From positions 62,001 through 126,000 of the forward strand of contig NZ_QEKI01000004.1 of assembly GCF_003096355.1 (NCBI RefSeq): a DNA stretch of 64,000 nucleotides, in the 5' to 3' direction. Positions 8,643-29,943 of the stretch are shown piece after piece; the stretch's first letter is position 1, and every line of letters starts with the position of its first letter. Made by a program: the position numbers and the translations under genes. Source of the stretch: Pontibacter virosus (lineage in GTDB: Bacteria > Bacteroidota > Bacteroidia > Cytophagales > Hymenobacteraceae). The notes under the pieces are model-generated. The model made no database searches. It was not told the DNA's origin and worked only from the letters and a program-made list of their open reading frames with translations.

Positions 8643-9320
8643 ATGAATATACTTGTAGTTGAAGATGAATTGAGTCTGGCTGAAGAACTGAGGCACTTCC
8701 TGGAGAAGGAGCACTACTTATGCGAAGTGGCCAACACGGGTAGCGATGCTTCTGAGAAGATGGCCGTCACACCCTACGACTTTATCCTGCTGGACCTGGG
8801 TTTGCCCGATTATGATGGGCTCGATCTGTTGCAAGAGGCCAGGCAGGATTTAAATGCTGATGCAAGCGTGATCATACTAAGTGCCAGAGGTGCGGTGGAA
8901 GATCGTGTGAACGGTCTGAACCTGGGTGCAGATGATTACCTGCCAAAGCCCTTTTCACTGCTGGAACTGCACTCCCGCATGCAAGCCATCATACGGCGAA
9001 AGTTTGGGGTGAGAAGTCAGGTGGTGCCCTTGCACGACTTTGAAGTGGACATCCAAAACAGGGAGGTCCGACACAAGGGGCAGGTGGTGTCCCTCACGAA
9101 AAAGGAGTTTGACCTGCTTACCTATCTGCTGCTCCACAAGAACAGGGTGCTTACCCGTTTGCAGCTCAGTGAGCACATTTGGGGCAACATACTCGAAGAT
9201 GACTACGACTCCAATTATATAGACGTGCATATCAAGAACATCCGAAAAAAACTGGCTGCGCATAAGCTTACCGACTGGCTGGAGACAGTGCGCGGTGTTG
9301 GGTACCGTATAAGCCTCTAA
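8643..9320 (+). CDS. OmpR/PhoB-family response regulator
   Basis: The product is 225 aa, the usual length for the family. The receiver domain (residues 1-120) shows the acidic pair E7-D8, phospho-acceptor D51 in LLDLGLPD, switch residue S80 and K102 in YLPKPFS. The winged-helix DNA-binding domain (about 128-225) has LTKKEFDLLTYLL, the recognition-helix region YDSNYIDVHIKNIRKKL and the terminal RGVGYRI. The next gene, nine bases downstream, encodes the sensor kinase, so the two form a two-component pair. The pair is QseB/PhoP-like in layout. The target genes probably include the neighbouring envelope genes; that is inference from position. Confidence 0.95.
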   Translation: MNILVVEDELSLAEELRHFLEKEHYLCEVANTGSDASEKMAVTPYDFILLDLGLPDYDGLDLLQEARQDLNADASVIILSARGAVEDRVNGLNLGADDYLPKPFSLLELHSRMQAIIRRKFGVRSQVVPLHDFEVDIQNREVRHKGQVVSLTKKEFDLLTYLLLHKNRVLTRLQLSEHIWGNILEDDYDSNYIDVHIKNIRKKLAAHKLTDWLETVRGVGYRISL

Positions 9321-9329
9321 TTCAGCATA

Positions 9330-10643
9330 ATGAAGCTAAGCACAAAACTGGCCCTGTTCAATGCAGGCTCTAAAATTGCTATTCTGCTGCTATTTGCGCT
9401 TTTGCTGCCCTGGCTGGTGCGCCACTTCGCTATCACCAGTACCGATGAGCGCCTGCAACGACAGCAGGAGACAGTATTGACTATTATTGCTGAGCAAGGC
9501 ATTGGGAGCTTCCTTCAGGAAGGCGATGAGGGTGGCTATGGCAGTTACAATATCTTAAAGGAGGAGTTCATCTCGCTGGAACAGATAGAGCCGGAGGAAA
9601 CGGTACATAGTATAGAGGACGCACAACGGGCTGTGGAAGGCGAGGTGGTGGACTACAGGGTGCTGAGCTATACCTTCACCATAGACGAAGAGTACTACCT
9701 GTTGGAGATTGGCCGCAGCACGACTACCATTGCAGAGATTAGCCGCACTTTGCAGCGCTTCTCCTTCTACCTAATGTTTGTAGTCATCCTAGTTACCTTT
9801 ATCACCGACTCTGCCTTCGCGCAGGCGTTACTAAAACCACTCAAAAAGATTATCAAGACCAAACTGCAGCACATCCAGTACCCTACTTCACCACCCTACC
9901 CGGTCATCAAAACCAGCACCACCGACTTTCAACTGCTCGATAGCAGCATCAACCAGATGATGACGCAGATTGACTCGGCTTTCCGGAAAGAGCGGGAGTT
10001 CATCAGTAATGTATCGCACGAGCTGCTTACGCCGGTATCGGTGATGCAGCACCGGCTTGAGAACATTCTGCAGGAGAAAAACCTGAGCCAGGAAAGCATG
10101 CGCAAGATAGTGGAGTCGCAAAAGACCCTCAACCGCCTGAAGAACATCATCAACTCCCTGCTGTTCATCTCCAAGATTGAGAACGAGCAATATGGCCGGG
10201 AAGAAGCGGTATCGGTAAGAGAACTGGTGCAGGAAGTAGTAGAAGAGGCCATTGACCGGGCTGAGGCCAAAGAATTGCGGCTTTGTGTGCAGTTGGAAGA
10301 AGACTATGTACAGAACCACGCAAACAAAGCGCTGCTTTTTACTATGCTTTTCAACATTGTGAACAATGCCATCAAGTACAGTCCTCCAGGCGGTGCCATC
10401 GCCATCAAAGGCCGGCCACTGGAGAAGGGGTATCAATTGCAGGTGCTGGACAAGGGTGAGGGCATCTCAGAACAAAAGCTGGAGCGAATTTTCAACAGAT
10501 TCGAGCGCTTCCATAAGCCCGACGGCGAAAGTTATGGCCTGGGCCTTTCCATTGTCAAAATCATCGCCGACTTCCACCACCTGTCACTGCAAGTAAGCTC
10601 CCAAGAGGATGAAGGCACAACCTTCAGCATTGATTTCAATTGA
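9330..10643 (+). CDS. sensor histidine kinase
   Basis: The product is 437 aa. Two transmembrane helices (about residues 16-33 and 145-165) flank a periplasmic sensing region of about 110 residues that is rich in Glu and has no recognisable PAS or Cache signature. A short linker follows, then the dimerisation/H-box FISNVSHELLTP with phospho-acceptor H230. The HATPase domain has N-box NIVNNAIKYS, G1 DKGEGIS and G2 GLGLSIVK. It autophosphorylates and passes the phosphate to the response regulator encoded nine bases upstream. The acidic periplasmic segment would suit sensing of metal cations or cationic peptides, but nothing in the sequence proves the signal. Confidence 0.93.
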   Translation: MKLSTKLALFNAGSKIAILLLFALLLPWLVRHFAITSTDERLQRQQETVLTIIAEQGIGSFLQEGDEGGYGSYNILKEEFISLEQIEPEETVHSIEDAQRAVEGEVVDYRVLSYTFTIDEEYYLLEIGRSTTTIAEISRTLQRFSFYLMFVVILVTFITDSAFAQALLKPLKKIIKTKLQHIQYPTSPPYPVIKTSTTDFQLLDSSINQMMTQIDSAFRKEREFISNVSHELLTPVSVMQHRLENILQEKNLSQESMRKIVESQKTLNRLKNIINSLLFISKIENEQYGREEAVSVRELVQEVVEEAIDRAEAKELRLCVQLEEDYVQNHANKALLFTMLFNIVNNAIKYSPPGGAIAIKGRPLEKGYQLQVLDKGEGISEQKLERIFNRFERFHKPDGESYGLGLSIVKIIADFHHLSLQVSSQEDEGTTFSIDFN

Positions 10644-10867: not shown

Positions 10868-13450
10868 ATGAGAAAAATTTATGCGCTCGCCACAGCGGCA
10901 CTGGTCTTCTTAAGCCAGTGGACCATGGCGCAGGCAGATCTCTCCTATTACCTCCCGCAGGATGTAACCTACAACAAAGAGTTTCCGACACCCAAAGACA
11001 TACTGGGCTACAACGTAGGCGAATGGCATGTAAGCCACGACCAGCTGGCGATGTACATGCGGCAAATGGCAGAGCTATCCGATCGCATCACCATTGAGGA
11101 GTATGCGCGCACGCACGAAAACCGCCCGCTATACCTGCTCACCATCACCTCCCCCGAGAACCACAAAAATATTCAGCGCATAAAGGAGCAGCACCGCCAG
11201 CTGACCGACCCGAATGCATCGGGTAAGCTCGACATCAAGCATATGCCGGGCGTGGTGTGGATGGGCTACAGTGTGCACGGCAACGAACCAAGCGGCAGCA
11301 ATGCCTCTTTGCTGGCCGTATACTACCTGGCCGCCGCGCAGGGCCCTGAAATTGACAAGCTGCTGAGCGAAACGGTTATCTTGATCGACCCTTCCATCAA
11401 CCCGGACGGGCTGAATCGCTTCGCCAGCTGGGTGAACACGCACCGTGGTAAAAACCTGGTGACTGACCCGAACAGCGAGGAGTTTGCCGAGGCCTGGCCA
11501 CGTGGTCGCACCAACCACTACTGGTTTGACCTGAACCGCGACTGGTTGCCGCTCCAGCACCCGGAGTCGAGAGGCAGACTGGTGAAGTTCCACGAGTGGA
11601 AGCCGAACGTGCTGACTGACCACCACGAAATGGGCACCAACTCCACTTTCTTTTTCCAACCAGGTATACCTAGCCGCAACCACCCGCTCACACCGGCCCG
11701 CAATTACGACCTGACCAAAAAGATAGCCGGCTTCCATGCCAAGGCCCTCGACAAGATTGGGTCGTTCTACTATACCGAAGAAAGCTTCGATGACTTTTAC
11801 TACGGCAAAGGCTCCACCTACCCGGATGTGAATGGTGCCATCGGCATCTTGTTTGAGCAGGCGAGCTCCAGAGGGCATGCGCAGGAGAGCGTGAACGGTG
11901 TGCTCACTTTCCCTTTCACCATCCGCAACCAGTTCACGACTACCCTTTCGACTTTAGAGGCGGTGCAGAACATGCGCGAAGAGCTGCTCAGCCACCAACG
12001 TGACTTTTACCGTGATGCCTTGAAAGAATCTGCCAAGGCTCCGTTTGGCGGCTATGTGTTCAGTGCCGAAAAAGACCCGGCCCGCGCTTATCACCTGGCC
12101 GAGATCATCCACCAGCACCAGATCGACATCTACCGTCCGCAGGAAAAATTCACGGTTAACAATGTGACGTATACCCCGGAGAACAGCTACATCGTGCCTA
12201 CCAACCAGCCACAGTACAAACTAATCGAAGGTATGTTCGAGCGCCGCACCTCGTTTCAGGACAGTTTGTTTTACGACGTATCAGCCTGGACGCTGCCACT
12301 TGCTTTTAACCTGGAGCACGCCAACCTGACTGCACGCCAGTTCAAACGCAATATGCTGGGCCAGAAACTCTCTTCTGTCGACTTTCCGGCAGGCCAGATA
12401 GTGGGTGGCAACAGCGCTTATGCCTACGCTTTTGAGTGGCACGGCTACTATGCCCCAAGAGCCCTCAACACGCTCTTCAACCATGGTTTGCAAGCCAGAG
12501 TGGCTACGAATAAGTTTACAGGCGATGGCAAGCAGTTCGACTACGGCACCATCCTGATTCCGGTAGTAGGCCAGCCACACAGTGCCGAGCGCATACACGA
12601 GCTGATGGCTCAGATCGCAAAAGACAACGGCATTACAGTTCACGCCATGACCACTGGGTTTACAGAAGGCATCAACCTAGGTAGCCCGGGCATCTATACC
12701 TTGCAGCAACCGAAGCTGGCCATGCTAATCGGGGACGGCGTGAACAGCAACGATGCCGGCGAAGCCTGGCACCTGCTCGACCATCGCTTCGATATCAACA
12801 CTAGCCTCGTCAACGCCGAGTCTGTGAACCGCATTGACCTGAGCCGCTACAATGTGATCGTGATGGCAGATGGATCTTATGGCAGCATTTCGGAGATGGG
12901 CAAAACGAGACTGCGCACCTGGGTGCAGCAGGGCGGCACGCTGATAGGCATGGGCAATGCCACGCGCTGGCTTGCGGATAACAAGATCGGCAACTTCAGC
13001 TTTAAGCAGGGTGAGAAATCTGACACTACCCGCCTGCCATACGCCAGCATGAGCAACACGACCGGTGCACAGGTGATAGGCGGTGCTATCTTCGAAACCA
13101 ACCTCGACCTGACGCATCCGCTAGGCTATGGCTACTACAACAGCAAACTACCCGTGTTCCGCGACAACCGCTTGTTCATGGAGCCTTCCAAAAGCCCTTA
13201 TGCCAACCCGGTGGTATATACCGCCAAGCCGCTGATGAGCGGTTATATCTCAAAGCCAAACCTGAAGCAACTTGGCAATACAGCTGCCATTTCAGTGTCA
13301 GCTTTAGGCGGTGGCAAAGTGATCGGCATGACGGACAACCCGAACTTCCGCGCCTTCTGGTTCGGCACCAACAAGTTGTTCCTCAACAGCATCTTCTTCG
13401 GCCAGATCATTAGCGGAGGCTCCGCCCGTGCTGAAGAAGCAGCCCATTAA
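10868..13450 (+). CDS. secreted M14-family zinc carboxypeptidase
   Basis: The product is 860 aa. A signal peptide (MRKIYALATAALVFLSQWTMAQA) is followed by an M14 catalytic domain. It shows the zinc motif H137-G-N-E140 in VHGNEPSG, the SINPDGLNRF and DLNRDWLPLQHPES signatures, and the third zinc His in TDHHEMGTN (residue 252 or 253). The catalytic Glu is probably in GILFEQASS. The C-terminal third contains a GATase-like fold segment (about 590-720, LAMLIGDGVNSNDAGEAWHLLDH), as is common in long Bacteroidota M14 proteins. It should hydrolyse peptides in the periplasm or outside the cell. It has its own terminator and is a single-gene unit. No sorting domain was recognised at the C-terminus. Confidence 0.9.
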   Translation: MRKIYALATAALVFLSQWTMAQADLSYYLPQDVTYNKEFPTPKDILGYNVGEWHVSHDQLAMYMRQMAELSDRITIEEYARTHENRPLYLLTITSPENHKNIQRIKEQHRQLTDPNASGKLDIKHMPGVVWMGYSVHGNEPSGSNASLLAVYYLAAAQGPEIDKLLSETVILIDPSINPDGLNRFASWVNTHRGKNLVTDPNSEEFAEAWPRGRTNHYWFDLNRDWLPLQHPESRGRLVKFHEWKPNVLTDHHEMGTNSTFFFQPGIPSRNHPLTPARNYDLTKKIAGFHAKALDKIGSFYYTEESFDDFYYGKGSTYPDVNGAIGILFEQASSRGHAQESVNGVLTFPFTIRNQFTTTLSTLEAVQNMREELLSHQRDFYRDALKESAKAPFGGYVFSAEKDPARAYHLAEIIHQHQIDIYRPQEKFTVNNVTYTPENSYIVPTNQPQYKLIEGMFERRTSFQDSLFYDVSAWTLPLAFNLEHANLTARQFKRNMLGQKLSSVDFPAGQIVGGNSAYAYAFEWHGYYAPRALNTLFNHGLQARVATNKFTGDGKQFDYGTILIPVVGQPHSAERIHELMAQIAKDNGITVHAMTTGFTEGINLGSPGIYTLQQPKLAMLIGDGVNSNDAGEAWHLLDHRFDINTSLVNAESVNRIDLSRYNVIVMADGSYGSISEMGKTRLRTWVQQGGTLIGMGNATRWLADNKIGNFSFKQGEKSDTTRLPYASMSNTTGAQVIGGAIFETNLDLTHPLGYGYYNSKLPVFRDNRLFMEPSKSPYANPVVYTAKPLMSGYISKPNLKQLGNTAAISVSALGGGKVIGMTDNPNFRAFWFGTNKLFLNSIFFGQIISGGSARAEEAAH

Positions 13451-15233: not shown

Positions 15234-18200
15234 TTAACGCATGATGGTCACTGAAGTCTTGACAGCCGGCGTATCGTCACCGAACTCGATGATGGCGTAG
15301 TAGGTACCATCTGGCAGTCGCTTGCCGTTGTGGGTACCGTCCCACTCTTTGCCATATCCTCTCGACTCGAATACCGGGCTACCCCAGCGGTTGTAAACCG
15401 TTACTCTGCAGTTAGGGTAAGTTTCCGGCAGGTTGCGAAGCACCCAGGTGTCGTTGATGCCGTCGCCGTTTGGTGTGAAACCATTCGGGATGTCCAACTC
15501 GCCTAAGCTTGTTACATCAAACTCAACCTCTGTGATACAGCCACTCGCATCGCGCACTTTCAGGTAGTGCTTGCCACCGCGCAGGTTCGGGAACTCCGAC
15601 TCGGTTACAAACTCTCCTCCGTTCAGTGAGTAGACGTATGGCGCCGTACCTCCGCTGATCGCACTCACTTTAGCGCTGCCGGAGTTAGGCTTGCCTGGCA
15701 CACCATCGTTCACTGCCATCTCTACTTGTAGTGGAGTTGGCTCTTTTATCTCCACGGCACCCAATGTAATGGTGCAGGTAGAAGAGAATCGCGTGAGCAC
15801 CTGGTAAGTGCCTTTGGCCAGTCCCGTGAACTCTGGATTTTTCTGGAAGGTTTTGCCGTTGTCGATGCTGTACTCTGTGTTCGCATCGCCTCCGGTCGCC
15901 TCGATCAGGATTACCCCATTCTTGTCGCCGTAGCAGCTGATGTGGCTTACGTTCGCTACTTTGCTTGATAGACCAGCAACTGTTACCGGCACTGAGAAGG
16001 TACAGCCCTTGGCGTCTTTCACGATCAGGGTATAGCTTCCGGCCGCTACGTTGGCCAGTGTGGCTGAAGCAGAGAAGTTAGTACCATCCAGTGAGTAGGT
16101 ATAAGGCGCTGTGCCTCCCGTTACATCCGTTACTGTCACCTCTCCGGCTTTATCGCCACATGTGGCAGCTGATACTGTGAATTTCGCATCGGTCAGCATT
16201 GGGCTGTTCTGTAGCGTTACCGTTTCTGTCAGCATACAGCCGCTGGCGTCTTTCACATACACGGTGTACTCGCCTTCGGCCAAACCGGTGAAGCTTGCTT
16301 CAGTCACGAAGTTGGTTCCGTCGATGCTGTAGGTATAAGGCGCGGTACCACCCACGATCTCGCTGATGGCGATGCGGCCGTTGCGCTCACCGCAACTGGC
16401 ATCGGTGCCAGTCGCCGCGAAGCTTTCCACGCCACCGCTCGTTGTCACCGACTGCTCAACCGTAATGGCACAGCCTTCGGCGTCTTTGATCGTGATAGTA
16501 TAAGCACCTGCTGACAGGTTAGCGAAAGTAGCCGAGGCTTGGAAGCTACCTCCGTTCAGGCTGTAGGTATAAGGGGCTGTGCCCCCGTTTACAGCCGTTA
16601 CCATGATCGAACCGTTTGCTTCGCCACAGGCCGCTTGTTGAGCAGTTATTGTCGCTTCCTTCGGACCTTTCTGGTCCACCGTTACAGTCGTTACCACGCT
16701 GCAACCGTTGGCATCCTTCACCATCACCTCGTACTCACCCGGAGCCAGCGATGCAAATGCAGCTGAAGCCTGGAAAGTAGTCCCGTTGATAGAGTAGGTA
16801 TAAGGTGCTACACCGCCAGTTACCTGGCCTACCGTGATCGCTCCGTCATTTGCGTCGCAAGATGCAGCAGTTGCAGTTGCAGTCAGGGCCGAAGGACCCG
16901 CTACGTTGTCCACTACTACTTTCTTCTCGATCGTACAGCCGTTGGCATCGCGCACGGTAATGGTATGCTCGCCAGCCGCTACCGAAACAAATGCCGCTTC
17001 GCTCTGGAAGGCACCGCCGTTCAGGCTGTAGGTATAAGGAGCTGTTCCGCCTTTCACGCCGCTTGCCACAATGCCGCCGTTGGCTTCGCCGCAGGTTGCT
17101 GTAGAGGTAGTCAGCGCAAATTCAGTCGGACCGGCAATGTTCTCAATGACTACTGCTTTGCTGAAGGTACAGCCGTTGGCGTCTTTGATGTACACCGTGT
17201 GGTTACCTGCCGCCATACCTGTCAGTTCAGCCGAAGTCTGGAAGTCAGATCCGTCTTTGCTGTAGGTATAAGGGGCTTGGCCTCCGGTTACCGCACCTAT
17301 TGTCACGCTGCCGTTGCTGGCACCGCAGGTAGAGGCTTTGGTTGTGGTTGCAAAACCTTCAGGACCGTCGGTGTTCGTTACCGTCACCGCTTTCGCGAAA
17401 GTACAACCGTTAGCATCCTTCACCGTCACCTGATACTCGCCAGCGGCCAAGCCTGTAAAGCTGGCTGATGTCTGGAAGTTGGTGCCGTTGATGCTGTAGG
17501 TATAAGGGGCCGTGCCGCCTGTCACGTTGCTCACGCTGATCTGTCCGTTGCTGTTGCCGCAAGTGGTGTTCTGGGCAGAGGCAGTGAGATCAGATGGACC
17601 GGCCACGTTGTTGATCGTGATGGTTTCGGTGTGCGTACAGTTGTTGGCGTCTTTTACTGTTACAGTGTATGCCCCTGCCATCAGACCTGAGAAGCTGGCT
17701 GCGCTTTGGAAGGCGCCTCCGTTCAGGCTGTAGGTATAAGGAGCCACGCCGCCCTCTACGGAAGTAATACGGATGCTGCCATTGTCGCTACCGCAGGTCG
17801 AGTAGCTGGTTGAGGCAACAAAGCTGCCCGGTCCGTCTTTCTCAACTTTTACTGTCGTGGTTGTTTCGCAGCCGTTGACGTCGCGTACCGTCAGGGTATA
17901 CTCTCCGGAAGCCAGTGCTGTGAAAGCTGTGCTAGTCTGGAAGGCACCACCGTTCAGGCTGTAGGTATAAGGGGCCGTGCCGCCTGTCACCGTGCCCACT
18001 GTCACGCGGCCGTCGTTGTCGGCACAGGTTGCCGCTTGCGCACTCGCCGCTACCGCAGAAGGACCTGCGATATCCGTTACCGTGAAGGCTTTGGCAAACG
18101 TACAGCCGTTGGCGTCTTTCACCGTGATGGTGTGGCTTCCAGCAAGCAGACCTGTGAAGGTAGCCGCGGCTTGGAAGTTCGTACCGTCAATCGAGTAGCT

Positions 18201-21200
18201 GTAAGGAGCGGTTCCACCTGAAACATTCGTCAGGGTCAGTTCACCGTTCGCCGCACCGCAAGTAGAAGCTTTGGCTGAAGCAGTCAAGTCGGATGGTCCA
18301 GCGATGTCATTCACCACGATCTCCTTGCTGAAAGTACAGCCGTTGGCATCCTTCACGGTCACCGTATAAGTTCCAGCCAGCACCGCCTCGAAGGTTGTTA
18401 AAGCTTGGAAGCTGTTACCGTTGATCGAGTAGGTATAGCCGGCTGTGCCGCCTGTCACACCTGTTACGGTAATAGTACCGTTAGCGCTGCCGCAGGTAGA
18501 CGAAGTGCTGGTTAGCGTCATGTTGCTTGGACCGGCCACATCTTCTATCGTCACTACTTGCGAGATCACACAACCGTTGGCGTCTTTTACCGTGATGGTA
18601 TGCTCACCGGCTATTAGTCCTGTCAGCGTGGCTGAAGACTGGAAGTTGGTACCATCGGTGCTGAAGGTATAAGGTGCTGTACCTTCTTCTACTGAAGCCA
18701 CGGTAATGGAACCATTCGCACGACCGCAGCTCGAAGACTGGGCAGTGGCTACGAAGTCAGACGGACCCGGGATGTTCTCCAGCGTTACCGCCTGTGTATA
18801 GGTACAGCCGTTGGCGTCTTTCACCGTCACCTGATAGGAGCCTGCAGCCAGCGCAGCAAAAGTAGTCGCGCTCTGGAAGTTGGCACCGTCGATGCTGTAG
18901 GTATAAGGCGCTGTGCCCCCCGTCACCCCATTAATACTGAATGAAGCGTTCGAATCGCCGCAGGTGCTCGCTTTCGGAGCAATCGCCAGTTCAGACGGAC
19001 CTGCAATGTCGCTCACCTGCACCTGTGCTGCGTAGGTACAGCCTTTGGCGTCCTTCACCGTGATGGTGTGCGTTCCGGCCACAAAGCCAGTCAGCATAGC
19101 GGAAGCCTGGAAGGTCGTGCCGTCCTTGCTGTAGGTATAAGGAGCAAATCCGCCGGTTACTTCACCCACTGTGATCGTGCCGTTGTTGCTTCCGCAAGTG
19201 GTGGCGGTGGTTGTTGTGGCAAAGTTGGTTGGGATGTTCTTGTTGATCGTTACGGCTCTGGTTACTGTACAGCCGTTGGCGTCACGCACCGTCAAAGTAT
19301 AACTTCCGGAGGCGAGGCCATTAAAGGCTGTTGCGCTCTGGAAAGTAGTACCGTTGATGCTATACTGATAAGGAGCAGTTCCGCCGGTTACCGTACCTGC
19401 CGTGATCGAGCCGTCATTGTCGGCGCAACTCGCTGCCCCTGACGTAGCCGCCACCGCAGTAGGTCCGCCGATGTTGGTGACATCAAATGCCTTCTCGAAA
19501 ATACAGCCGTTGGCGTCGCGCACGGTGATGGTGTGCGAACCTGCTGCAAAACTAGTAAGTGTCAGTTCAGACTGGAAGTTCACACCGTCTTTGCTGTACT
19601 GGTAAGGCGCTGTTCCGCCAGTTGTACCGGTGATGGTCAGTTCGCCGTTTGCCGCGCCACAAGTAGCCGCTTTGGCAGTGGCTGCCAGATCAGAAGGACC
19701 TGCGATGTCCGTCACGGTGATCTCTCTGCTCAGGGTACAGCCGTTGGCGTCCTTTACCGTCACTGTATACTTTCCAGCCAGCATTGACTCAAAGCTAGTT
19801 CCGGCCTGGAAAGTAGTGCCGTTGATGGAGTAGGTATAAGGAGCTGTTCCGCCCATCACGCCATTCACGGATACCACACCGTTGGCGCTGCCGCAGGTAG
19901 AGGCTGTGCTGGCCAGGGTCAGTTCGCTTGGTCCCGGGATGTCGGTTACCTCGATGGTCTTGGCGATCAAACAGCCGTTGACGTCCTTCACCGTGATCGT
20001 GTACTCCCCTGCCGCCAGCGAACCGAAGTTGGCTGAGGTCTGAAAGGTAGATCCGTCCTTGCTGTAGGTATACGGCGCTGTGCCACCCACCACATTGCTC
20101 ACGCTGATGCTCGCATTGCTGCTTCCGCAAGTAGAAGAAGCACCAACCAGCGTAAAGTCAGCTGGTCCGGCAATGTCCTGTACTATAACCTTTACCGTGC
20201 CGATACAGCCATTGGCATCCTTCACCGACACTGCGTACTCCCCTGCCTTTACATTGGCAAAAGTAGTCGTGCTCTGGAAAGTGGTGCCGTCGATGCTGTA
20301 GGTATATGGAGCCACACCGCCAGTTACTGCGCCTACCGAAATGTTGCCGTTGCTGGCACCGCAGGTACTGGCTTTTGTCGAGGCTGTGAACTGTGGACCT
20401 GCCACATTTTCCAGCGTAACTGATTTGGTGAATGTACAGCCTTTCGCATCGCGTACTGTGATGCGGTGAGCGCCTGCTGCCAGTCCAGTGAAAGTGGTGC
20501 CCGTCTGGAAGCTGCCGTTGTTGATGCTATAGGTATAGGTACCCGTACCACCTGTAACCGTGCCCACCGTGATGCTGCCGTCGCTGCGACCGCAGGTAGA
20601 TGGCACTGTCGTGTGTGCAAAGTTAGTTGGCACGTTCTCGCCTACTGTCACCGTGCGTGTCACGATACAGCCGTTGGCATCCTTCGCCGACAAGGTATAG
20701 CTTCCGGAAGCCAGTCCTGTAAAAGCTGTTGTGCTCTGGAAGTTGGTGCCGTTGATGCTGTAGGTATAAGGAGCTGTGCCACCCGTTACCGCACCGGCTG
20801 TGATCGAGCCGTCGTTGTCGTTACAGCTGGCTGGAGTTGTCGAAGCCGCCACTGCCGTTGGTCCGCCAATGTTGGCTACTGTAACTGACTTAGTGAAAGT
20901 ACAGCCGTTAGCATCGCGCACGGTGATTGTATGAGTGCCTGCTGCAAAACCTGTCAGGGTCGTTTCAGCCTGGAAGTTCACACCGTCTTTGCTGTAGATA
21001 TAGCCGGTTGCTCCGCCTGTCACACCAGTTACTGTAATCTCACCATTGCTGGTGCCGCAGGTAGTCGCTTTGGTTGTGGCAGTCAGGTCAGTTGGACCGG
21101 CGATATCTTCTACTACAATCGCTTTGCTGAACGTACAGCCGTTGGCGTCTTTCACCGTGATGGTATAAGTACCCGCCAGCACCGTTCCGAAAGAAGCTGT

Positions 21201-24200
21201 AGCCTGGAAGTTGGTACCGTCTATACTATAAGTATAAGGAGCCGTACCGTCTGCCACATTATTTACAGAAACAGAACCGTTCGCGCTGCCGCAGGTAGAG
21301 GCTTTCGAAGCGAGTGTCAGGTCTGATGGACCGGCGATATCGGTCACTTCCACCTCGCGGGTAGCTGTACAGCCGTTGGCGTCTTTCACTGCAATCGTGT
21401 AAGTGCCAGCCGCCAGATTTGTGAAGCTTGTGCCACTCTGGAAAGTACCACCGTTGATGCTGTAGGTATAAGGTGTCGTACCGCCGTTTACCTCGCTCAC
21501 GCTGATGCGTCCGTTGCTGGCGCCACAGGTAGAGGCCTGCGCCGTAGCTGTAAAGTTCGGACCGGCAATGTTACTCACCGCCACGTCTTTGGCAAAGGTA
21601 CAGCCGTTGGCATCGCGCACCGAAATGCTGTACGTACCTTCCGCCAGGCCCGTGAAGGTAGCCGAGGTCTGGAAAGTGCCGCCGTTGATACTGTAGGTAT
21701 AAGGCTCCACGCCACCGCTTACATTCGTCACCGTCAGCTGACCGTTCGGATTACCGCAAGTCGAGGAAGTGGCAGAGGCAGTCAGGTTAGATGGTCCGGC
21801 CACATCGCTTACTGCGATCTGGCGGGCGATGGTACAGCCTTTGGCATCCTTCACCGTGATGGTGTGCGTTCCGGCCACAAAGCCAGTCAGCGTAGATGCC
21901 GTCTGGAAGTTCACACCGTCCTTGCTGTAGGTATAAGGAGCGAAACCTCCCGTTATTGCACCTACCGTGATCGAGCCATTGTTGCTTCCGCAAGTAGAGG
22001 CTTTAGTCGTAGAGGCAAAGTTGATTGGGATGTTCTTGGTTACATTGACTGTTCTGGTTACCGTACACCCGTTGGCGTCTTTCGCCGTCAAGGTATAGTT
22101 ACCAGAAGCCAGGCCTGTGAAAGCCGTTTCGCTCTGGAAGGTCGTACCGTTAATTGAGTAGATATAAGGAGAAGTGCCGCCTGTAACTGCACCGGCCGTA
22201 ATAGAACCATCGCTATTGGCGCAGCTCGCCGCAGCTGAAGTAGCCGCCACTGCCGTAGGGCCAGCCACATTGGTCAGCGTAAACGACTTGGCGAACGTAC
22301 AGCCATTCGCATCCTTCACCGTAATGCTGTGGGCGCCTGCCGTCAAACCTGTGAAGGTAGCCGAAGTCTGGAAGTTTACACCGTCTTTGCTGTAGGTATA
22401 GCTCGTGGTGTTGCCCGTCACGCCAGTTACTGTGATTTCACCGTTCGCCGCGCCGCAAGTAGTCGCTTTCAGCGTAGCCGTGAAATCCGTAGGGCCGGCA
22501 ATGTTGGTAACAGCTATCTGTTTTGCAACAGTACAGCCGTTTTTGTCTTTTACTGTGATGGTGTACGTGCCTTCTGCCAAAGCTTCGAAAGTAGCAGAGA
22601 CCTGGAAGTTGGTGCCGTCCTTGCTATAGGTATAGCCGGATGTGCCACCTGTTACCGCACCTACTACGATGGAGCCATTGCTGCCACCACAAGTAGCGGT
22701 ATTAGCTGTCAGCACAAAATCTGTTGGTCCGGCTACGTCTTCTACCACCACATTTTTCGCGAAAGTACAACCCTTCGCATCCTTCACGGCGATATTGTAA
22801 GTACCCGCTCTCAGCGTTCCGAAGTTGTTAGACGTCTGGAACGTTCCGCCGTTGATGCTGTAGGTATAACCTGACGTACCGCCCGCAACAGCTGTTACCC
22901 GGATACTGCCGTTGTTGCGACCGCAAGAGGTTGTAGTCACAGAAGCCGTAAAATCAGAAGGGCCCGCCACATCCGACACTACCACCGCTTCGGTGTAAGT
23001 ACAGCCATTGGCGTCTTTCACCGTTACGTTGTAGGTTCTGGCAGTCAGTGTCGTGAATGTAGCCGAAGCTTGGAAGTTGGTACCATCTATACTATAGGTA
23101 TAGTCTTCTGTTCCACCCGTCACACCTGTTACCGTAAGCGCACCATTCGGATTACCGCAGCTCGATGCTGTAGCCGTGGCTACCAGATCAGAAGGACCTG
23201 CTACGTTGCTTACCGCTATCTGACGCGATACCACACAGCCTTTTGAGTCTTTCACCCAAACAGTATGCGTAGTGGCGGAGAAGCCGGTTAGTGTCGGGCT
23301 TGTCTGATAGGTTACGTTGTCTTTACTATAGGTATAGGTACCTGAACCGCCTGTTACCGTACCCACCGAAATCGTACCGTTGCTGTTGCCGCAGGTAGAT
23401 GGATTGGTGGTGAAGGCAAAGTTTGTTGGCACGTTCGTACCCACCGTCACCGACCTGGTCACGGTACAGCCATTGGCATCCTTCGCTGTTACGGTATAAG
23501 GTCCTGCAGCAAGTCCGCTAAACACCTTACCAGCCTGGAAAGTAGTGCCGTTAATGGAGTAAGTCATGGTGCCGGTACCACCTGTCACGGTTCCTACCGT
23601 GATGGTACCGTCGTTGTTTTGGCAGCTGGCCGCCTGTGTTGTAGCCGTTACCGCGGTTGGACCGGCCACGTTCGTAAGCGTGAAGGTTCTGGAGAAGCGG
23701 CAGTTGTTGACGTCTTTTACAGTAATGGTATGGTTGCCTACCGCCAGACCAGAGAAAACAGCTGAGTTCTGGAAGTTCACACCGTCTTTGCTGTAGGTAT
23801 AGGTGCCCGTTCCGCCTGTCACACCGGTTACCGTGATCTGTCCATTCGTAGCACCACAGGTGGTGTTGTCCACGGTGGCGGCAAAGTTGCTAGGACCAGC
23901 CACGTCGCCCACTGTTACTTCTTTTGTGAACGTACAGCCGTTAGCATCTTTTACAGTGATGCTATACTTATCGGCACGCAAACCAGAGAAGATATTGGAG
24001 TTCTGGAAGCTACCGCCGTTAATGGCGTAGGTCTTCGTGCCCGTTCCGCCTGTTACAGTTCCTACTGTAATGCTACCGTTGGTGCCGCCGCAGGTAGAGG
24101 ATGCCGCAGTGAAAGCAAAATCAGATGGGCCTGGCACGTTGGTGATGCTCACCGTTTTTGAGATGGTACAGCCGCGGGCATCCTGCACCGTGATGGTGTA

Positions 24201-26990
24201 AGTGCCTTCTGCAAAGCCAGTCAGTATCGCATCGTCCTGGAACGTGGTGCCGTTCTTACTATACTTATAAGGAGAAACACCTCCTACAATGTTGCTCACC
24301 TGCACAGTGCCGTTCGGGTTGCCGCAGGTGGCTGCAGTCGGAGTCAGCGTGAAGTCTGTCGGCATCACCTGCTCTACTCTCACTGAAGTAGTGGTCGTAC
24401 AGCCATTGGCATCTTTCACCGTCAAGGTATAGTTTCCGGAAGCCAGGCCTGTAAAGGTGGTGTTTTCCTGGAAATTGGTGCCGTTGATAGAATAGGTCTT
24501 TGTACCCGTGCCGCCTGTTACCGCTCCTGCCGTAATGGTACCGTCGTTGTTGCGGCAGCTGGCAGAAGTGGAAGTAGCTGCTACTGCTGTAGGGCCGGCT
24601 ACATTCGTCAGCGTAACAGACTTTGAGTAAGTACAGCCGTTGGCATCCTGTACCGACACATTATAAGTACCCGCAGCCAAGCCTGTAAAAGTAGCGGATG
24701 ACTGGTAAGCTCCACCGTTGATAGAATAAGTGAAGGTTTTGTTTCCGCTGGAAACCACGTTGCTTACCACGATCTGCCCGTTGCTGTTGCCACAAGTAGA
24801 AGAAGTTGGCGTAGCGGTGAAGTTGGTCGGGCCTGGCACGTTCTGCACAGTCACTGATTTGCTCAGTACGCAGCCTTTCGAATCTCTCACCCAAACCGTG
24901 TGCGTACCGGCAGCAAAGCCGGTGAGGAGCGTAGATAACTGGTAGGTTTGGCCATTCTTACTGTACTCCAGTGCGCCTACGCCTCCTACTACACCGGAGA
25001 TCGTTACAGTACCGTTCGGATTGCCGCAGGTAGAGGAAGCTGGTGTAGCTGTAAAGTTGGTGATGGAAGCCTGCGCCACTGTTACCGAAGTGGTAACGGT
25101 ACAGCCATTGGCATCCTTTGCCGTCAGGGTATAGTCACCGGAAGCGAGGCCTGTGAAGGTGGTACCTGCCTGGAAATTGGTGCCGTTGATGGAGTAGGTT
25201 TTGGTTCCTGTGCCACCCGTTACATCACCCGCTGTAATGGTGCCGTCGTTGTTAAGACAGCTGGCAGGATTTGACGTGGCCGCAACTGCAGTCGGACCAG
25301 GTGTATTGGTCAGCGTGAAGGATTTGGCAAAGATACAGCCGTTTTTGTCACGCACCGTGATGGTGTGGTTGCCCACTGCAAGTCCTGTAAAGGTATTGCT
25401 CGTCTGGAAGTTCGTTCCGTCCTTGCTGTAGGTATAGTTGGCCGTTCCGCCTGTCACATTATTGACAACAATCTGCCCGTTGGCATTGCCACAAGTAGTG
25501 TTGGTTGGTGTGGCTGTGAAGTCAGCCGGGCCATTTACCTGCGTCACTGTAAACGACTGTGTAATAGCACAGCCTTTTTCGTCAGTTACAGTCACTGAGT
25601 AAGAACCGGCAGATAATCCATTGATTGAAGCTGTAGTAGCACCATTACTCCACAAATAACTTAAAGCACCTTCAGTACCTGTCACATTAGCTGTAATCGT
25701 ACCCTTCGTGCCGTTACAAATAACAGGAGTGCCATCTAGTGTCACCACCATGCTATAAAAGGTGATCAGTACTTCGTCACTCACAGGAGAACAGCTGCCA
25801 TTGCCGGTAGAAGTCAGGGTGAGTTGCACAGAACCCGCGCTGATATCTGCTGCCGAAGGCGTGTAAATCGCGTTCAGATCGTCTCTGTTGGAGAAAGTAC
25901 CGCTACCGCTTGTGCTCCAACGACCACCTAAGGCCGCTGTTACGGTTCCGGCCAATTGCACCGTGCCTGAAGAACAGACCAGTTGATCTGCACCGGCGTT
26001 CGCAGTAAGGTTGGTCACGACTTCTACGGTGGCCGAGAACTCTTTACAGTTGATGTTATTAGTGTTTTTTGGGACCGCTGCGAATTTGTAGATGCCAATG
26101 GCATTTGCTGTGTATGTAATATTATTGCTAACAACGCTTCCATCAGGACCATACCAGAAGTAGTCAAAACCAGCTGCCTGATCACCACCTGTTACGCTAC
26201 CTGTAAGCTGCACACTGCTTCCTCCCGGACAGATAATGGCTGGTTCTGGACCAACGGTGACAACGGGTTCGGGATAAAAGTATACTCTAATCTCATCGTA
26301 GTGAGAAGAAGTAGTAGCGCACTCACTTGGCATAACTGAGCCACTAACTCTATAATCTACATACTCCGGGGCTGTTTCATCTGGTGTAACTATTGGATTT
26401 AGGATATTTACATCACTCAAAAACTTTTCGAACCCACGTCCAGAAATATCTTGCCAAACAATTTTGTCATCATCCAGAAAAGTGGCTGGCGCCCTAAGTT
26501 GTGCAGAACAACCACCTACTACAGATATATCACCCTGTGGTTCAAAAGCAGCTAGCGATGTAATGGAGTAAACATTGGCATTGCCACCAGGTTTACATAT
26601 GGTTAGCGTCAAATATTTACTGTTTGTCCTTGGGATACACATTGCCACCCCAACAGGGAACACCTGCGTGCCGCAATCAACTGTATAACCCATCGAACCA
26701 CCAGACTCCGCTCCTGAAACCACATCCAGTTCTACCTGAGCAGCGTCCTTGTCTAAGATGATGATAAACTGTATACATTCACCTTTATCAACATTACAAG
26801 CGATGCCATTTCTTTTAACCTCAGGTGACTGCCAATACCCATTAGGCTTACCTGTCAGGTCAATGGTATAGGTGGGCACCTGATTATTATTCCCTTGCGC
26901 AAACACATCAGGGGATGCTACCAGCTGTAACATCCCTAAGAGTAAAATCGCAAGAAGGTGGGAAATTTTTTGAGTAAAGTTTATTTCCAT
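15234..26990 (-). CDS. sprB: giant SprB-like repeat adhesin with type B sorting domain
   Basis: The product is 3,918 aa. A signal peptide (MEINFTQKI…DVFAQG) is followed by about 450 residues of unique and PKD/Ig-like sequence. From residue 485 to about 3825 there are roughly 41 clear SprB repeats of about 78 aa and two degenerate ones. Each has a TCG-x-x-NG start, a GGTAPYTYS core, FQ near the middle, and a closing VKDANGC. The last 87 residues (LDIPNGFTPNGDGIND … PDGTYYAI) are the gliding-motility-associated CHU_C/type B sorting domain that directs T9SS export. SprB proteins are mobile surface adhesins in gliding Bacteroidota. The next gene downstream is its sprF-like partner. The frame is intact over 11.7 kb despite the repeats. 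Whether the organism glides cannot be told from here; SprB is the closest functional relative, not a proven orthologue. Confidence 0.9.
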   Translation of the reverse strand: MEINFTQKISHLLAILLLGMLQLVASPDVFAQGNNNQVPTYTIDLTGKPNGYWQSPEVKRNGIACNVDKGECIQFIIILDKDAAQVELDVVSGAESGGSMGYTVDCGTQVFPVGVAMCIPRTNSKYLTLTICKPGGNANVYSITSLAAFEPQGDISVVGGCSAQLRAPATFLDDDKIVWQDISGRGFEKFLSDVNILNPIVTPDETAPEYVDYRVSGSVMPSECATTSSHYDEIRVYFYPEPVVTVGPEPAIICPGGSSVQLTGSVTGGDQAAGFDYFWYGPDGSVVSNNITYTANAIGIYKFAAVPKNTNNINCKEFSATVEVVTNLTANAGADQLVCSSGTVQLAGTVTAALGGRWSTSGSGTFSNRDDLNAIYTPSAADISAGSVQLTLTSTGNGSCSPVSDEVLITFYSMVVTLDGTPVICNGTKGTITANVTGTEGALSYLWSNGATTASINGLSAGSYSVTVTDEKGCAITQSFTVTQVNGPADFTATPTNTTCGNANGQIVVNNVTGGTANYTYSKDGTNFQTSNTFTGLAVGNHTITVRDKNGCIFAKSFTLTNTPGPTAVAATSNPASCLNNDGTITAGDVTGGTGTKTYSINGTNFQAGTTFTGLASGDYTLTAKDANGCTVTTSVTVAQASITNFTATPASSTCGNPNGTVTISGVVGGVGALEYSKNGQTYQLSTLLTGFAAGTHTVWVRDSKGCVLSKSVTVQNVPGPTNFTATPTSSTCGNSNGQIVVSNVVSSGNKTFTYSINGGAYQSSATFTGLAAGTYNVSVQDANGCTYSKSVTLTNVAGPTAVAATSTSASCRNNDGTITAGAVTGGTGTKTYSINGTNFQENTTFTGLASGNYTLTVKDANGCTTTTSVRVEQVMPTDFTLTPTAATCGNPNGTVQVSNIVGGVSPYKYSKNGTTFQDDAILTGFAEGTYTITVQDARGCTISKTVSITNVPGPSDFAFTAASSTCGGTNGSITVGTVTGGTGTKTYAINGGSFQNSNIFSGLRADKYSITVKDANGCTFTKEVTVGDVAGPSNFAATVDNTTCGATNGQITVTGVTGGTGTYTYSKDGVNFQNSAVFSGLAVGNHTITVKDVNNCRFSRTFTLTNVAGPTAVTATTQAASCQNNDGTITVGTVTGGTGTMTYSINGTTFQAGKVFSGLAAGPYTVTAKDANGCTVTRSVTVGTNVPTNFAFTTNPSTCGNSNGTISVGTVTGGSGTYTYSKDNVTYQTSPTLTGFSATTHTVWVKDSKGCVVSRQIAVSNVAGPSDLVATATASSCGNPNGALTVTGVTGGTEDYTYSIDGTNFQASATFTTLTARTYNVTVKDANGCTYTEAVVVSDVAGPSDFTASVTTTSCGRNNGSIRVTAVAGGTSGYTYSINGGTFQTSNNFGTLRAGTYNIAVKDAKGCTFAKNVVVEDVAGPTDFVLTANTATCGGSNGSIVVGAVTGGTSGYTYSKDGTNFQVSATFEALAEGTYTITVKDKNGCTVAKQIAVTNIAGPTDFTATLKATTCGAANGEITVTGVTGNTTSYTYSKDGVNFQTSATFTGLTAGAHSITVKDANGCTFAKSFTLTNVAGPTAVAATSAAASCANSDGSITAGAVTGGTSPYIYSINGTTFQSETAFTGLASGNYTLTAKDANGCTVTRTVNVTKNIPINFASTTKASTCGSNNGSITVGAITGGFAPYTYSKDGVNFQTASTLTGFVAGTHTITVKDAKGCTIARQIAVSDVAGPSNLTASATSSTCGNPNGQLTVTNVSGGVEPYTYSINGGTFQTSATFTGLAEGTYSISVRDANGCTFAKDVAVSNIAGPNFTATAQASTCGASNGRISVSEVNGGTTPYTYSINGGTFQSGTSFTNLAAGTYTIAVKDANGCTATREVEVTDIAGPSDLTLASKASTCGSANGSVSVNNVADGTAPYTYSIDGTNFQATASFGTVLAGTYTITVKDANGCTFSKAIVVEDIAGPTDLTATTKATTCGTSNGEITVTGVTGGATGYIYSKDGVNFQAETTLTGFAAGTHTITVRDANGCTFTKSVTVANIGGPTAVAASTTPASCNDNDGSITAGAVTGGTAPYTYSINGTNFQSTTAFTGLASGSYTLSAKDANGCIVTRTVTVGENVPTNFAHTTVPSTCGRSDGSITVGTVTGGTGTYTYSINNGSFQTGTTFTGLAAGAHRITVRDAKGCTFTKSVTLENVAGPQFTASTKASTCGASNGNISVGAVTGGVAPYTYSIDGTTFQSTTTFANVKAGEYAVSVKDANGCIGTVKVIVQDIAGPADFTLVGASSTCGSSNASISVSNVVGGTAPYTYSKDGSTFQTSANFGSLAAGEYTITVKDVNGCLIAKTIEVTDIPGPSELTLASTASTCGSANGVVSVNGVMGGTAPYTYSINGTTFQAGTSFESMLAGKYTVTVKDANGCTLSREITVTDIAGPSDLAATAKAATCGAANGELTITGTTGGTAPYQYSKDGVNFQSELTLTSFAAGSHTITVRDANGCIFEKAFDVTNIGGPTAVAATSGAASCADNDGSITAGTVTGGTAPYQYSINGTTFQSATAFNGLASGSYTLTVRDANGCTVTRAVTINKNIPTNFATTTTATTCGSNNGTITVGEVTGGFAPYTYSKDGTTFQASAMLTGFVAGTHTITVKDAKGCTYAAQVQVSDIAGPSELAIAPKASTCGDSNASFSINGVTGGTAPYTYSIDGANFQSATTFAALAAGSYQVTVKDANGCTYTQAVTLENIPGPSDFVATAQSSSCGRANGSITVASVEEGTAPYTFSTDGTNFQSSATLTGLIAGEHTITVKDANGCVISQVVTIEDVAGPSNMTLTSTSSTCGSANGTITVTGVTGGTAGYTYSINGNSFQALTTFEAVLAGTYTVTVKDANGCTFSKEIVVNDIAGPSDLTASAKASTCGAANGELTLTNVSGGTAPYSYSIDGTNFQAAATFTGLLAGSHTITVKDANGCTFAKAFTVTDIAGPSAVAASAQAATCADNDGRVTVGTVTGGTAPYTYSLNGGAFQTSTAFTALASGEYTLTVRDVNGCETTTTVKVEKDGPGSFVASTSYSTCGSDNGSIRITSVEGGVAPYTYSLNGGAFQSAASFSGLMAGAYTVTVKDANNCTHTETITINNVAGPSDLTASAQNTTCGNSNGQISVSNVTGGTAPYTYSINGTNFQTSASFTGLAAGEYQVTVKDANGCTFAKAVTVTNTDGPEGFATTTKASTCGASNGSVTIGAVTGGQAPYTYSKDGSDFQTSAELTGMAAGNHTVYIKDANGCTFSKAVVIENIAGPTEFALTTSTATCGEANGGIVASGVKGGTAPYTYSLNGGAFQSEAAFVSVAAGEHTITVRDANGCTIEKKVVVDNVAGPSALTATATAASCDANDGAITVGQVTGGVAPYTYSINGTTFQASAAFASLAPGEYEVMVKDANGCSVVTTVTVDQKGPKEATITAQQAACGEANGSIMVTAVNGGTAPYTYSLNGGSFQASATFANLSAGAYTITIKDAEGCAITVEQSVTTSGGVESFAATGTDASCGERNGRIAISEIVGGTAPYTYSIDGTNFVTEASFTGLAEGEYTVYVKDASGCMLTETVTLQNSPMLTDAKFTVSAATCGDKAGEVTVTDVTGGTAPYTYSLDGTNFSASATLANVAAGSYTLIVKDAKGCTFSVPVTVAGLSSKVANVSHISCYGDKNGVILIEATGGDANTEYSIDNGKTFQKNPEFTGLAKGTYQVLTRFSSTCTITLGAVEIKEPTPLQVEMAVNDGVPGKPNSGSAKVSAISGGTAPYVYSLNGGEFVTESEFPNLRGGKHYLKVRDASGCITEVEFDVTSLGELDIPNGFTPNGDGINDTWVLRNLPETYPNCRVTVYNRWGSPVFESRGYGKEWDGTHNGKRLPDGTYYAIIEFGDDTPAVKTSVTIMR
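15516..25538 (-). repeat. about 43 tandem SprB repeats (about 230 bp each)
   Basis: This is the coding repeat array of the SprB-like gene. Each unit carries one Cys near its start and one near its end. At DNA level the units have drifted, so identity is clearer in protein than in nucleotides. A variant unit with SC-x-x-NDG occurs at units 2, 5, 9, 15, 21, 27, 33 and 38, giving a six-unit higher-order period in the middle of the array. Confidence 0.85.
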
Positions 26991-28728: not shown

Positions 28729-29943
28729 ATGCATACCAACCCGAAACATCTGGCTATAAAGGATTTTGTGTACGAGCTGCCAGATGAGCGCATTGCTAAA
28801 TTTCCGCTGCCGGAGCGCGACCAGTCTAAGCTACTCTATTATAAAAGCCACCATATAGCCGATCACACCTTCACGGATCTGCCGGACCTTTTGCCAGCGG
28901 GCAGTTTGCTGGTGTTCAATAACACCAAAGTGGTGCAGGCCAGATTGATTTTCCGCAAACCGACTGGTGGTGCAGTGGAAATATTTTGTCTGGAGCCAGT
29001 GAAACCGCACCGCGAAGTGCAGTTGGCAATGCAGCAGACGCGCAGTTGCACGTGGAAATGCTTGGTTGGCAACAACAAGCGCTGGAAAGAGGGTTCGCTG
29101 AAGATATTTTTTGAGGGTGGCGTGGTAACAGCAGAGCGCGAGGCACAGCAGGACGGGCACTTCCTCATTCGCTTTACCTGGACACCTGCCGAACTGACTT
29201 TTGCCGAAGTGCTGGAGCGCTGCGGACGGCTCCCCCTGCCCCCCTACCTGAACCGGGAGCTTACCCCCGAGGACCGAACCCGCTACCAGACCATCTATGC
29301 ACGCAACGAAGGTGCCGTGGCTGCCCCCACCGCCGGACTGCATTTCACGGACAAGGTGATGAAGCAGCTGCAGGCCAAAGGTATAGAAAGCAACTACCTT
29401 ACCCTACACGTGGGCGCTGGCACATTCAAACCGGTAAAGGCCGACACCATGGAGACCCATGAAATGCACGCCGAGCAATTAATGGTATCGAAGCAGGTCG
29501 TAAAACAGCTTTTGCAGCATTACGGCCGGCCGCTAATACCTGTCGGCACCACCTCCATGCGCAGTCTGGAAAGCCTGTTTTGGTTGGGGACGTTGCTTTT
29601 GCAGCAGCCAGATTTAAGACCCGAGGAACTGCACGTAACGCAGTGGCTGCCCTACGAAACCAGCACACCTCCAGCCGCTGCAGAAGCTCTTCAAACCTTG
29701 CTCGATTACATGGAACGGCACCAGACCGAACACCTGCATACCAGCACGCAGATCATTATTGCGCCGGGCTATACCTTCCGGGTTTGCAGCGGATTGGTGA
29801 CTAACTTCCATCAGCCAGAAAGTACGCTCTTGTTACTGGTTGCCGCTTTGATAGGTGAAGATTGGAAACAGGTTTACCGTCACGCTCTAAGCAATGGCTA
29901 TCGTTTCCTGAGCTACGGCGACAGCTCGCTCTTGCTGCCTTAA
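28729..29943 (+). CDS. queA: S-adenosylmethionine:tRNA ribosyltransferase-isomerase
   Basis: The product is 404 aa. The protein opens DFVYELPDERIAKFPLPERDQSKLL, the typical QueA start, and contains LLVFNNTKVVQARL, GRLPLPPYL, YARNEGAVAAPTAGLHFT and HVGAGTFKPV, all hallmark blocks. QueA transfers and isomerises the ribose of S-adenosylmethionine onto preQ1 in tRNA, giving epoxyqueuosine in the queuosine pathway. It is about 50 residues longer than the E. coli enzyme, as in other Bacteroidota. It has its own promoter and a structured leader, and ends at a bidirectional terminator. No other queuosine gene is near. Confidence 0.96.
   Translation: MHTNPKHLAIKDFVYELPDERIAKFPLPERDQSKLLYYKSHHIADHTFTDLPDLLPAGSLLVFNNTKVVQARLIFRKPTGGAVEIFCLEPVKPHREVQLAMQQTRSCTWKCLVGNNKRWKEGSLKIFFEGGVVTAEREAQQDGHFLIRFTWTPAELTFAEVLERCGRLPLPPYLNRELTPEDRTRYQTIYARNEGAVAAPTAGLHFTDKVMKQLQAKGIESNYLTLHVGAGTFKPVKADTMETHEMHAEQLMVSKQVVKQLLQHYGRPLIPVGTTSMRSLESLFWLGTLLLQQPDLRPEELHVTQWLPYETSTPPAAAEALQTLLDYMERHQTEHLHTSTQIIIAPGYTFRVCSGLVTNFHQPESTLLLLVAALIGEDWKQVYRHALSNGYRFLSYGDSSLLLP

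Follow-up and report, generated by a model that had tools for sequence, protein, structure and literature searches.

The window, i.e., the whole stretch of 64,000 nucleotides from Pontibacter virosus that was analyzed, contains on its reverse strand an open reading frame for a protein of 3918 aa (26990-15234), which holds the whole repeat array considered here. The predicted protein consists of an N-terminal head, a long stalk of SprB repeats (PF13573; 643.8 bits in 27 stretches, Pfam), and a C-terminal type B sorting domain of the type IX secretion system (T9SS), which was recognized both by NCBIfam (TIGR04131; 63.9 bits vs a cut-off of 35, residues 3833-3917) and by Pfam (CHU_C; 89 bits vs a cut-off of 27). 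Directly downstream, and on the same strand (15206-14253), lies the gene for a carrier of the PorP/SprF family (279.6 bits vs a cut-off of 90.55; NCBIfam). With repeats, sorting domain, and adjoining carrier all present, the protein belongs to the SprB-repeat proteins secreted by T9SS type B signals; its nearest named orthologues are those of P. indicus LP100 (84%) and Pontibacter sp. HSC-36F09 (87%). For the other genes in the vicinity, a two-component pair, two peptidases (M14 and M28), and a queuosine gene, no connection to the array was visible (Table 1). A second giant protein, of at least 1805 aa and with Ig_7 (CHU_C-associated) and PKD-like domains, is encoded at 1-5415 and extends past the edge of the window. 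Elsewhere in the genome, contig C9 (158804-166651) contains a 1241-aa frame with a sub-cut-off match to the SprB repeat (24.7 bits), located near two PorP/SprF paralogues, one of which ends in an ICPQWVW tail.

Table 1. Features of the adhesin locus (positions within the window).
Feature	Position	Strand	Remark
Adhesin gene (head, stalk of SprB repeats, C-terminal domain of T9SS type B)	15234..26990	-	
N-terminal head, aa 1-406	25773..26990	-	
Degenerate unit 0	25539..25772	-	
Regular array, units 1-43	15507..25538	-	
In-phase six-unit super-repeat, units 8-34	17607..23903	-	kind 5, then 012345 four times, then 01
Kind-0 unit 2	25071..25304	-	off the six-step; its partner is unit 5, at lag 3
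Kind-0 unit 5	24369..24602	-	off the six-step
Kind-0 unit 9	23436..23669	-	AV header, DG
Kind-0 unit 15	22035..22268	-	
Kind-0 unit 21	20637..20870	-	
Kind-0 unit 27	19239..19472	-	
Kind-0 unit 33	17838..18071	-	
Kind-0-like unit 38	16671..16904	-	off the six-step
CHU_C / TIGR04131 type B T9SS sorting domain, aa 3833-3911	15258..15494	-	
PorP/SprF-family outer-membrane carrier, 317 aa	14253..15206	-	without cysteine; Pfam match to residue 314, no C-terminal tail
Two-component pair	8643-10643		array neighbour
M14 peptidase	10868-13450		array neighbour
Queuosine gene	28729-29943		array neighbour
M28 peptidase	31489-30059		array neighbour

The array was cut into units by conserved anchors, which resulted in a degenerate unit 0 followed by units 1-43, nearly all of which are 77-78 aa long. 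A first-pass annotation, made from the DNA of the window, had described variant units within this array, and under the same numbering they were recovered at positions 2, 5, 9, 15, 21, 27, 33, and 38; that units 2, 5, and 38 carry the variant off the six-unit spacing was confirmed by the unit positions. The motifs proposed for the variant, SC-x-x-NDG and the header GP[TS]AVAA, apply in general but are slightly too strict, as unit 15 contains SCANSDG and unit 33 TCADNDG, and the headers of units 9 and 38 are GPTAVTA and GPSALTA, respectively. The units after the variants were said to be headed by N-[IV]-P-x-NF or similar, which corresponds to NVPTNF, NIPINF, NVPTNF, and NIPTNF in units 10, 16, 22, and 28 and to DGPGSF in unit 34.

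A period of six was evident from the identities between units. Within units 9-38, mean protein identity was 0.619 at lag 6, 0.583 at lag 12, and 0.572 at lag 18, compared with 0.49-0.52 at every other lag up to 20. When the unit order was shuffled, lag-6 identity was never as high (z = 7.7; 0/20000), which was also the case when the eight variant units were held out (units 1-41; z = 6.4; 0/20000). For 18.2 of the 27 units between 8 and 34 (ties shared), the best partner was found at a multiple of six, whereas 3.9 were expected. The unit tree that had been proposed as a check, in which unit i should pair with unit i+6, gave the same picture, the six phases of units 8-34 requiring 9 changes on it (shuffled mean 18.0; 0/200 as low). 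In this tree, phase 0 formed a single clade (support 99/98) which also took in the ungrouped units 2, 5, and 38. The clustering of the other phases was unequal: the number of shuffles as low, out of 500, was 1 for phase 5, 5 for phase 4, 10 for phase 1, 59 for phase 2, and 500 for phase 3. The period is carried by kinds 0, 1, 4, and 5; kind 2 is weak, and the signal of kind 3 is lost. The super-repeat, which had been assigned to the middle 24 units, is real, but its extent is nearer to units 8-34 (unit 8 being kind 5 by its likeness to unit 14, not by the position-specific kind score), and two of its phases have little or no tree signal. Growth of the array by a six-unit block of ∼1.4 kb, with the flanks not following, is supported. 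Tandem Repeats Finder reported no repeats between 10000 and 30000, and the DNA of the array must therefore be strongly diverged; the longest exact repeat within it is 45 bp, at lag 12.

The same order of units was found in other species. Among 37 Pontibacter genomes (including that of P. virosus), 22 contained a near full-length homologue of the head (E < 1e-100), and the arrays were taken from those. Lag 6 was best, or tied best to two decimals, in 17 of 21 Pontibacter arrays; lag 12 was best in G010 and G026 and lag 11 in G001 and G025. A position-specific score for the six kinds was trained on three genomes (G000, G017, and G009) and applied to the remaining species, and units without a confident kind were omitted from the order counts. 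Among the 13 species that lie outside the nearest clade, neighbouring units of confident kind obeyed the order 0-1-2-3-4-5-0 in 99 of 121 cases (mean of the shuffles 21.2, highest 35), and confident units at a distance of +6 were of one kind in 86 of 104 pairs (mean of the shuffles 18.0, highest 31); the five nearer species outside the training set gave 107/112. The period is also present in a second genus of the family, where lag 6 was best in each of three arrays (L111, L112, and L113; 0/500 local shuffles as high in each). One of these, L112, has eight consecutive AV-header units six apart, and a stricter header rule recovers six of the seven gaps between them. When the kinds were compared across the two genera, a kind was nearest to its own counterpart in four of the six rows; of the other two rows, one was a tie, and one placed the counterpart second, by 0.003. 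Of the 102 spacings between AV headers in 26 arrays, 70 were six, 76 were multiples of six, and 91 were multiples of three. Six- and five-unit steps are mixed in the Pontibacter arrays L114, L052 (G001), L048 (G025), and L085, with lag 11 best or tied best. Mis-assembly is possible for repeats, and some of the motif calls were loose; that the period results from it, from chance, or from the way the units were split can nevertheless be practically dismissed, given that the observed lag-6 identity is beyond the reach of the shuffles and that the order recurs in independent genomes, including assemblies of one or two contigs (G022, G020, and G021).

The cysteines of the units were a separate observation. 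In 26 of 26 arrays from Pontibacter and the second genus, the last unit (here 15507-15737) has the second of the conserved cysteines but not the first. In other families, loss of the first cysteine is far more frequent than loss of the second. Co-loss of the two conserved cysteines did not discriminate between pairing within a unit and pairing between neighbouring units.

The joint at which kind 0 meets kind 1 is special. In 44 exact six-blocks from 18 arrays, kind 0 invariably lacks the last unit column (44/44), and kind 1 invariably lacks the glycine at column 3, which belongs to the Gly-Pro header (44/44); an exception exists in P. virosus itself, where unit 34, following kind-0 unit 33, retains Gly-Pro. 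Phase information per column was highest in the linker/header, A strand, AB loop, and G strand, a signal that is partly circular because kind 0 was chosen by its AV header; that of the AB loop decreased from 0.41 to 0.07 when kind 0 was omitted. The hypothesis that the joints distinguish all kinds was rejected, as without kinds 0 and 1 the phase information is spread over the domain. Thus, only the joint between kinds 0 and 1 is claimed as special, and the other kinds differ across the whole domain. AlphaFold, provided with 72 in-register blocks, modelled units 14-21 as all-beta domains with a mean pLDDT of 92.3 and a pTM of 0.47, the latter meaning that the model informs about the fold of the domains, not about chain geometry or inter-domain twist. 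Together with Foldseek, the model points to a predicted tandem stalk of Ig-like domains, a feature of GhpA-type proteins.

The silent sites indicate that the duplication is old. In units 7-38, four-fold degenerate sites agreed at 0.41 (n = 759) at lag 6, compared with 0.409 expected from the same columns, and a small excess was observed at lag 12 (0.458 vs 0.414). The array of G017 is colinear with that of P. virosus (44:44 units, 43/44 reciprocal best, 91% identical), and four-fold identity of the orthologous units is 0.69. As lag-6 pairs are at background while these orthologues are not, the pairs must be far older than the split of the two species. The block duplication put forward in the first-pass annotation is supported, but it was not recent, which the conservation of the order in 13 distant congeners and in a second genus also indicates. 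Saturation of the silent sites is a measure of age and does not in itself demonstrate selection. Recent concerted evolution as the sole cause was rejected for this array, because lag 6 has no silent-site excess; some exchange is still visible, both in the excess at lag 12 and in units 16 and 28, which share 81% DNA identity.

How the arrays change in length was assessed from alignments of 47 of 210 species pairs, those with an aligned-unit identity of at least 0.68; neither the pairs nor the arrays are independent. The gaps were of 6 units in 29 cases, 12 in 2, 11 in 5, 5 in 4, 17 in 1, and 1 in 10, and six, with 17 to 38 cases, remained the commonest length whichever of the seven gap costs was applied. 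Gaps of three units were absent at the four settings with a gap opening of at least 0.3 and appeared 1, 2, and 15 times at 0.2, 0.1, and 0.02, respectively; the 15 at the lowest cost were accompanied by 2- and 4-unit gaps, beside 32 of six, and the low-cost alignment of G016 has the same three-, 2-, and 4-unit types. The array of G015 lacks exactly units 12-17, the switch of register falling within the kind-2 unit or at its end. Expressed as array length divided by 77.75, the number of units in the regular array is divisible by six for 14 of the 26 arrays. This applies to 12 of the 21 Pontibacter sets (54, 48, 42 in four, 36 in three, and 30 in three); another six have 6k+1 units, and three have 41, 39, and 35. 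The further counts are 54 (L112), 66 (L113), 58 (L111), 46 (L114), and 23 (L085). On the rpoB tree, unit number changed 14 times; seven changes were multiples of six, ties having been broken in favour of sixes, and the other seven were +1, -1, -1, -3, -7, -17, and -19. Between the arrays of different species, six units is the commonest difference.

Copying between units is apparent at a smaller scale as well. High-identity self-patches lay at lags divisible by three in 101 of 112 cases and at lags divisible by six in 65 (expected, 32% and 15%), part of which is protein likeness of same-kind units; the longest spans 3.7 units and thus never a whole six-block. Four-fold identity was at least 0.75 in 25 unit pairs, 10 of them at multiples of six, 9 at odd multiples of three, and 6 elsewhere. 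The most recent-looking in-phase exchange among the arrays compared is that of the one-contig genome G022 (L053), where units 7-9 and 19-21, twelve units apart, share 706 bp at 98.4% identity, including an exact run of 606 bp. Units 9 and 15 of G012 share 304 bp at 97%. The self-patches probably reflect in-phase exchange, both by copy-and-paste and by unequal exchange, with recombination as the presumed agent. It had been suggested that diversification at the DNA level would limit slippage; limited it may be, but the six-block differences and the in-phase patches, exact over up to 606 bp, indicate that it was not stopped.

Arrays of other families were compared with respect to the step. A search of 241 genomes, 138 of which have PF13573, was the source of 17 such arrays from other families of the order, which were hand-picked as long frames among the best matches listed and are not a random sample. 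A four-unit period was clear in L099, L103, and L109 (0/500 local shuffles as high in each) and was also observed in L104 (6/500). A significant six was found in none of the 17; in L095 and L096, lag 6 did rank first, yet shuffling equalled it in 222 and 91 of 500 trials, respectively, and the remaining 11 arrays had at least 21 of 500 shuffles as high. The other-family proteins L086-L093, which derived from the head search, had been dropped from the comparison of periods, the offset scan having yielded steps of 89 or 84 residues or none.

Homology alone may explain the six, the longest exact runs lying between units of the same kind. An alternative is that selection keeps the six-step because of stalk geometry, be it a turn, a bend at the joint between kinds 0 and 1, or the spacing of binding sites, arrays off the step working less well. 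Exact runs of at least 30 bp are two thirds as frequent at lags of 3 mod 6 (31/101) as at 0 mod 6 (45/101), and copying at lag 3 is apparent from AV spacings of 3 followed by 9 in G026 and G010; yet length differences of three units are rare and missing at the higher gap costs, which leans weakly toward selection. The unit numbers divisible by six (14/26 arrays) speak for it as well. Against it, three-unit gaps do arise at low gap cost, and G001 has 39 units; six is not general among SprB-repeat arrays, where, among the 17 of other families, four is clear in three; totals of 6k+1 and five-unit steps speak for tolerance; and the independent block events are few. On balance, selection on the step is an unlikely explanation. 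A more far-reaching version, in which the stalk is a six-domain ruler whose joints would set twist or bend, so that 6k domains would orient the head alike or the fibre would bend at intervals, with six-quanta selected and heads exchanged, has to be rated lower still. If it were true, the stalk would be a bacterial counterpart of the titin super-repeats.

The two ends of the protein differ in conservation. Across 20 orthologues, identity over the N-terminal 484 aa is 50-87%. In G009 and G005, the heads are only 55 and 56% identical to that of P. virosus, whereas the regions after the last unit are 95 and 93%, the carriers 95 and 96%, and rpoB 99 and 98% identical; the array of G009 is 89% identical. 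In these genomes (L054 and L055, compared with 25539-26990 here), the heads are far more variable than stalk and carrier, as though swapped on a conserved stalk. A head varying this freely suggests a role at the tip.

A PorP/SprF homologue is present at 25 of 25 orthologous loci. In F. johnsoniae, the C-terminal Cys-X-Cys of SprF, which links to GldK, is required for gliding (PMC12635249). No Cys-X-Cys was found in the carrier of the window, nor in those of the 25/25 orthologous loci, the carrier ending at the barrel; of the eight family members in the genome, three other PorP paralogues (L115, L117, and L121) possess a cysteine near the C-terminus. The best match in the genome to GldJ (TIGR03524) reached 146.1 bits, compared with a cut-off of 458.2, in three pieces within a 412-aa frame. 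P. coccineus BT731 and P. amylolyticus 9-2 were scored negative for gliding and P. virosus positive (PMC12281811), and gliding varies within Pontibacter (PMC4511580). The loci of BT731 (L061) and of P. amylolyticus CGMCC 1.12749 (L062) hold an in-phase array, both cut by the end of the locus; L061 has the same accession stem as given in PMC12281811, whereas L062 is from strain CGMCC 1.12749 and the scored strain is named 9-2. The designation "SprB-like" in the first-pass annotation is appropriate with regard to repeats and secretion signal, but a link to the motor is doubtful because the Cys-X-Cys tail is absent from the carrier. An alternative, namely a functional gliding adhesin of the SprB type that is coupled to the motor and whose super-repeat matters for traction, would be in accordance with the SprB repeats, the type B C-terminal domain, the adjoining PorP/SprF gene, the variable gliding in the genus, and the positive score of P. 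virosus. We regard it as improbable, since the carriers lack the tail that SprF of F. johnsoniae needs, and since species scored as non-gliding appear, within the strain correspondence given above, to carry the in-phase array. For the same two reasons, an adhesin driven by the motor is less likely than a static, fibrillar one, and motor coupling would probably be lacking.

GhpA-type grappling hooks are multimeric filaments that bear hooks. GhpA of Aureispira sp. CCB-QB1 was the only PDB match to the stalk protein, both by profile at E ≤ 1 (E 1.3e-24) and by phmmer at E ≤ 0.1, and its C-terminal domains align with those of the adhesin. Four GhpA fragments (9flp, 9fly, 9flw, and 9flv) occupied ranks 1-4 in Foldseek (9flp, E 2.0e-25, TM 0.47), at 15-21% identity to the stalk; the likeness is one of fold and sequence matches. 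SprB of F. johnsoniae has tandem PF13573 repeats, a type B signal, and a neighbouring SprF gene. The P. virosus protein shares with it the long tandem of PF13573, the type B T9SS signal, and the adjoining PorP/SprF carrier (PMC12635249), but differs in that its carrier has no Cys-X-Cys tail, on which gliding depends. No six-unit super-repeat is described for F. johnsoniae SprB in titles and the beginnings of abstracts, which sets the two apart by description, not by sequence; a higher-order period was not found for any SprB-repeat protein in these titles and abstract beginnings, which leave the subscription literature largely uncovered. The A-band super-repeats of titin offer an analogy: tandem Ig/FnIII domains in fixed order with position-specific conserved residues (PMC10665226). 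Titin is an unrelated eukaryotic protein whose order is tied to partners in the thick filament, and the parallel is one of analogy only. A similar higher-order periodicity exists in other families of the order (L099, L109, and L103), but with four units instead of six.

Periodicity, its age, its sharing between species, the block-sized differences, and the domain families were computed directly. With them, the protein is probably best described as a T9SS type B stalk adhesin with an ancient six-domain super-repeat that evolves by in-phase recombination, and more likely static than motor-driven. Its stalk would be a chain of Ig-like domains arranged as a super-repeat of kinds 0-5, which would have originated before Pontibacter split from the second genus of the family. 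Blocks of six would be added or removed by recombination between units of one and the same kind, and short patches copied in phase would preserve the succession of kinds even as the DNA drifts. The lack of clustering of kind 3 in the unit tree, and the weak clustering of kind 2, are evidence against such a block scheme, as are the seven changes of unit number on the rpoB tree that are no multiples of six and the best lags of 11 or 12 in four arrays. The adhesin, with its variable head, would be exported by the T9SS and anchored by the adjoining PorP/SprF-like carrier; its surface position and adhesive function, like recombination as the agent and the missing motor coupling, are what the sequences suggest.

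It is easy to mistake SprB-repeat stalks for uniform chains of domains. In the present case, the order of kinds is old and common to genera, and a tandem repeat has retained its higher-order period after its silent sites were randomized. Length changes are often those of whole blocks, which bears on whether giant bacterial stalks act as spacers or possess a position-specific geometry. The cysteine tail of the carrier is suggested as a sequence test by which motor-linked SprB-repeat proteins might be told from others.
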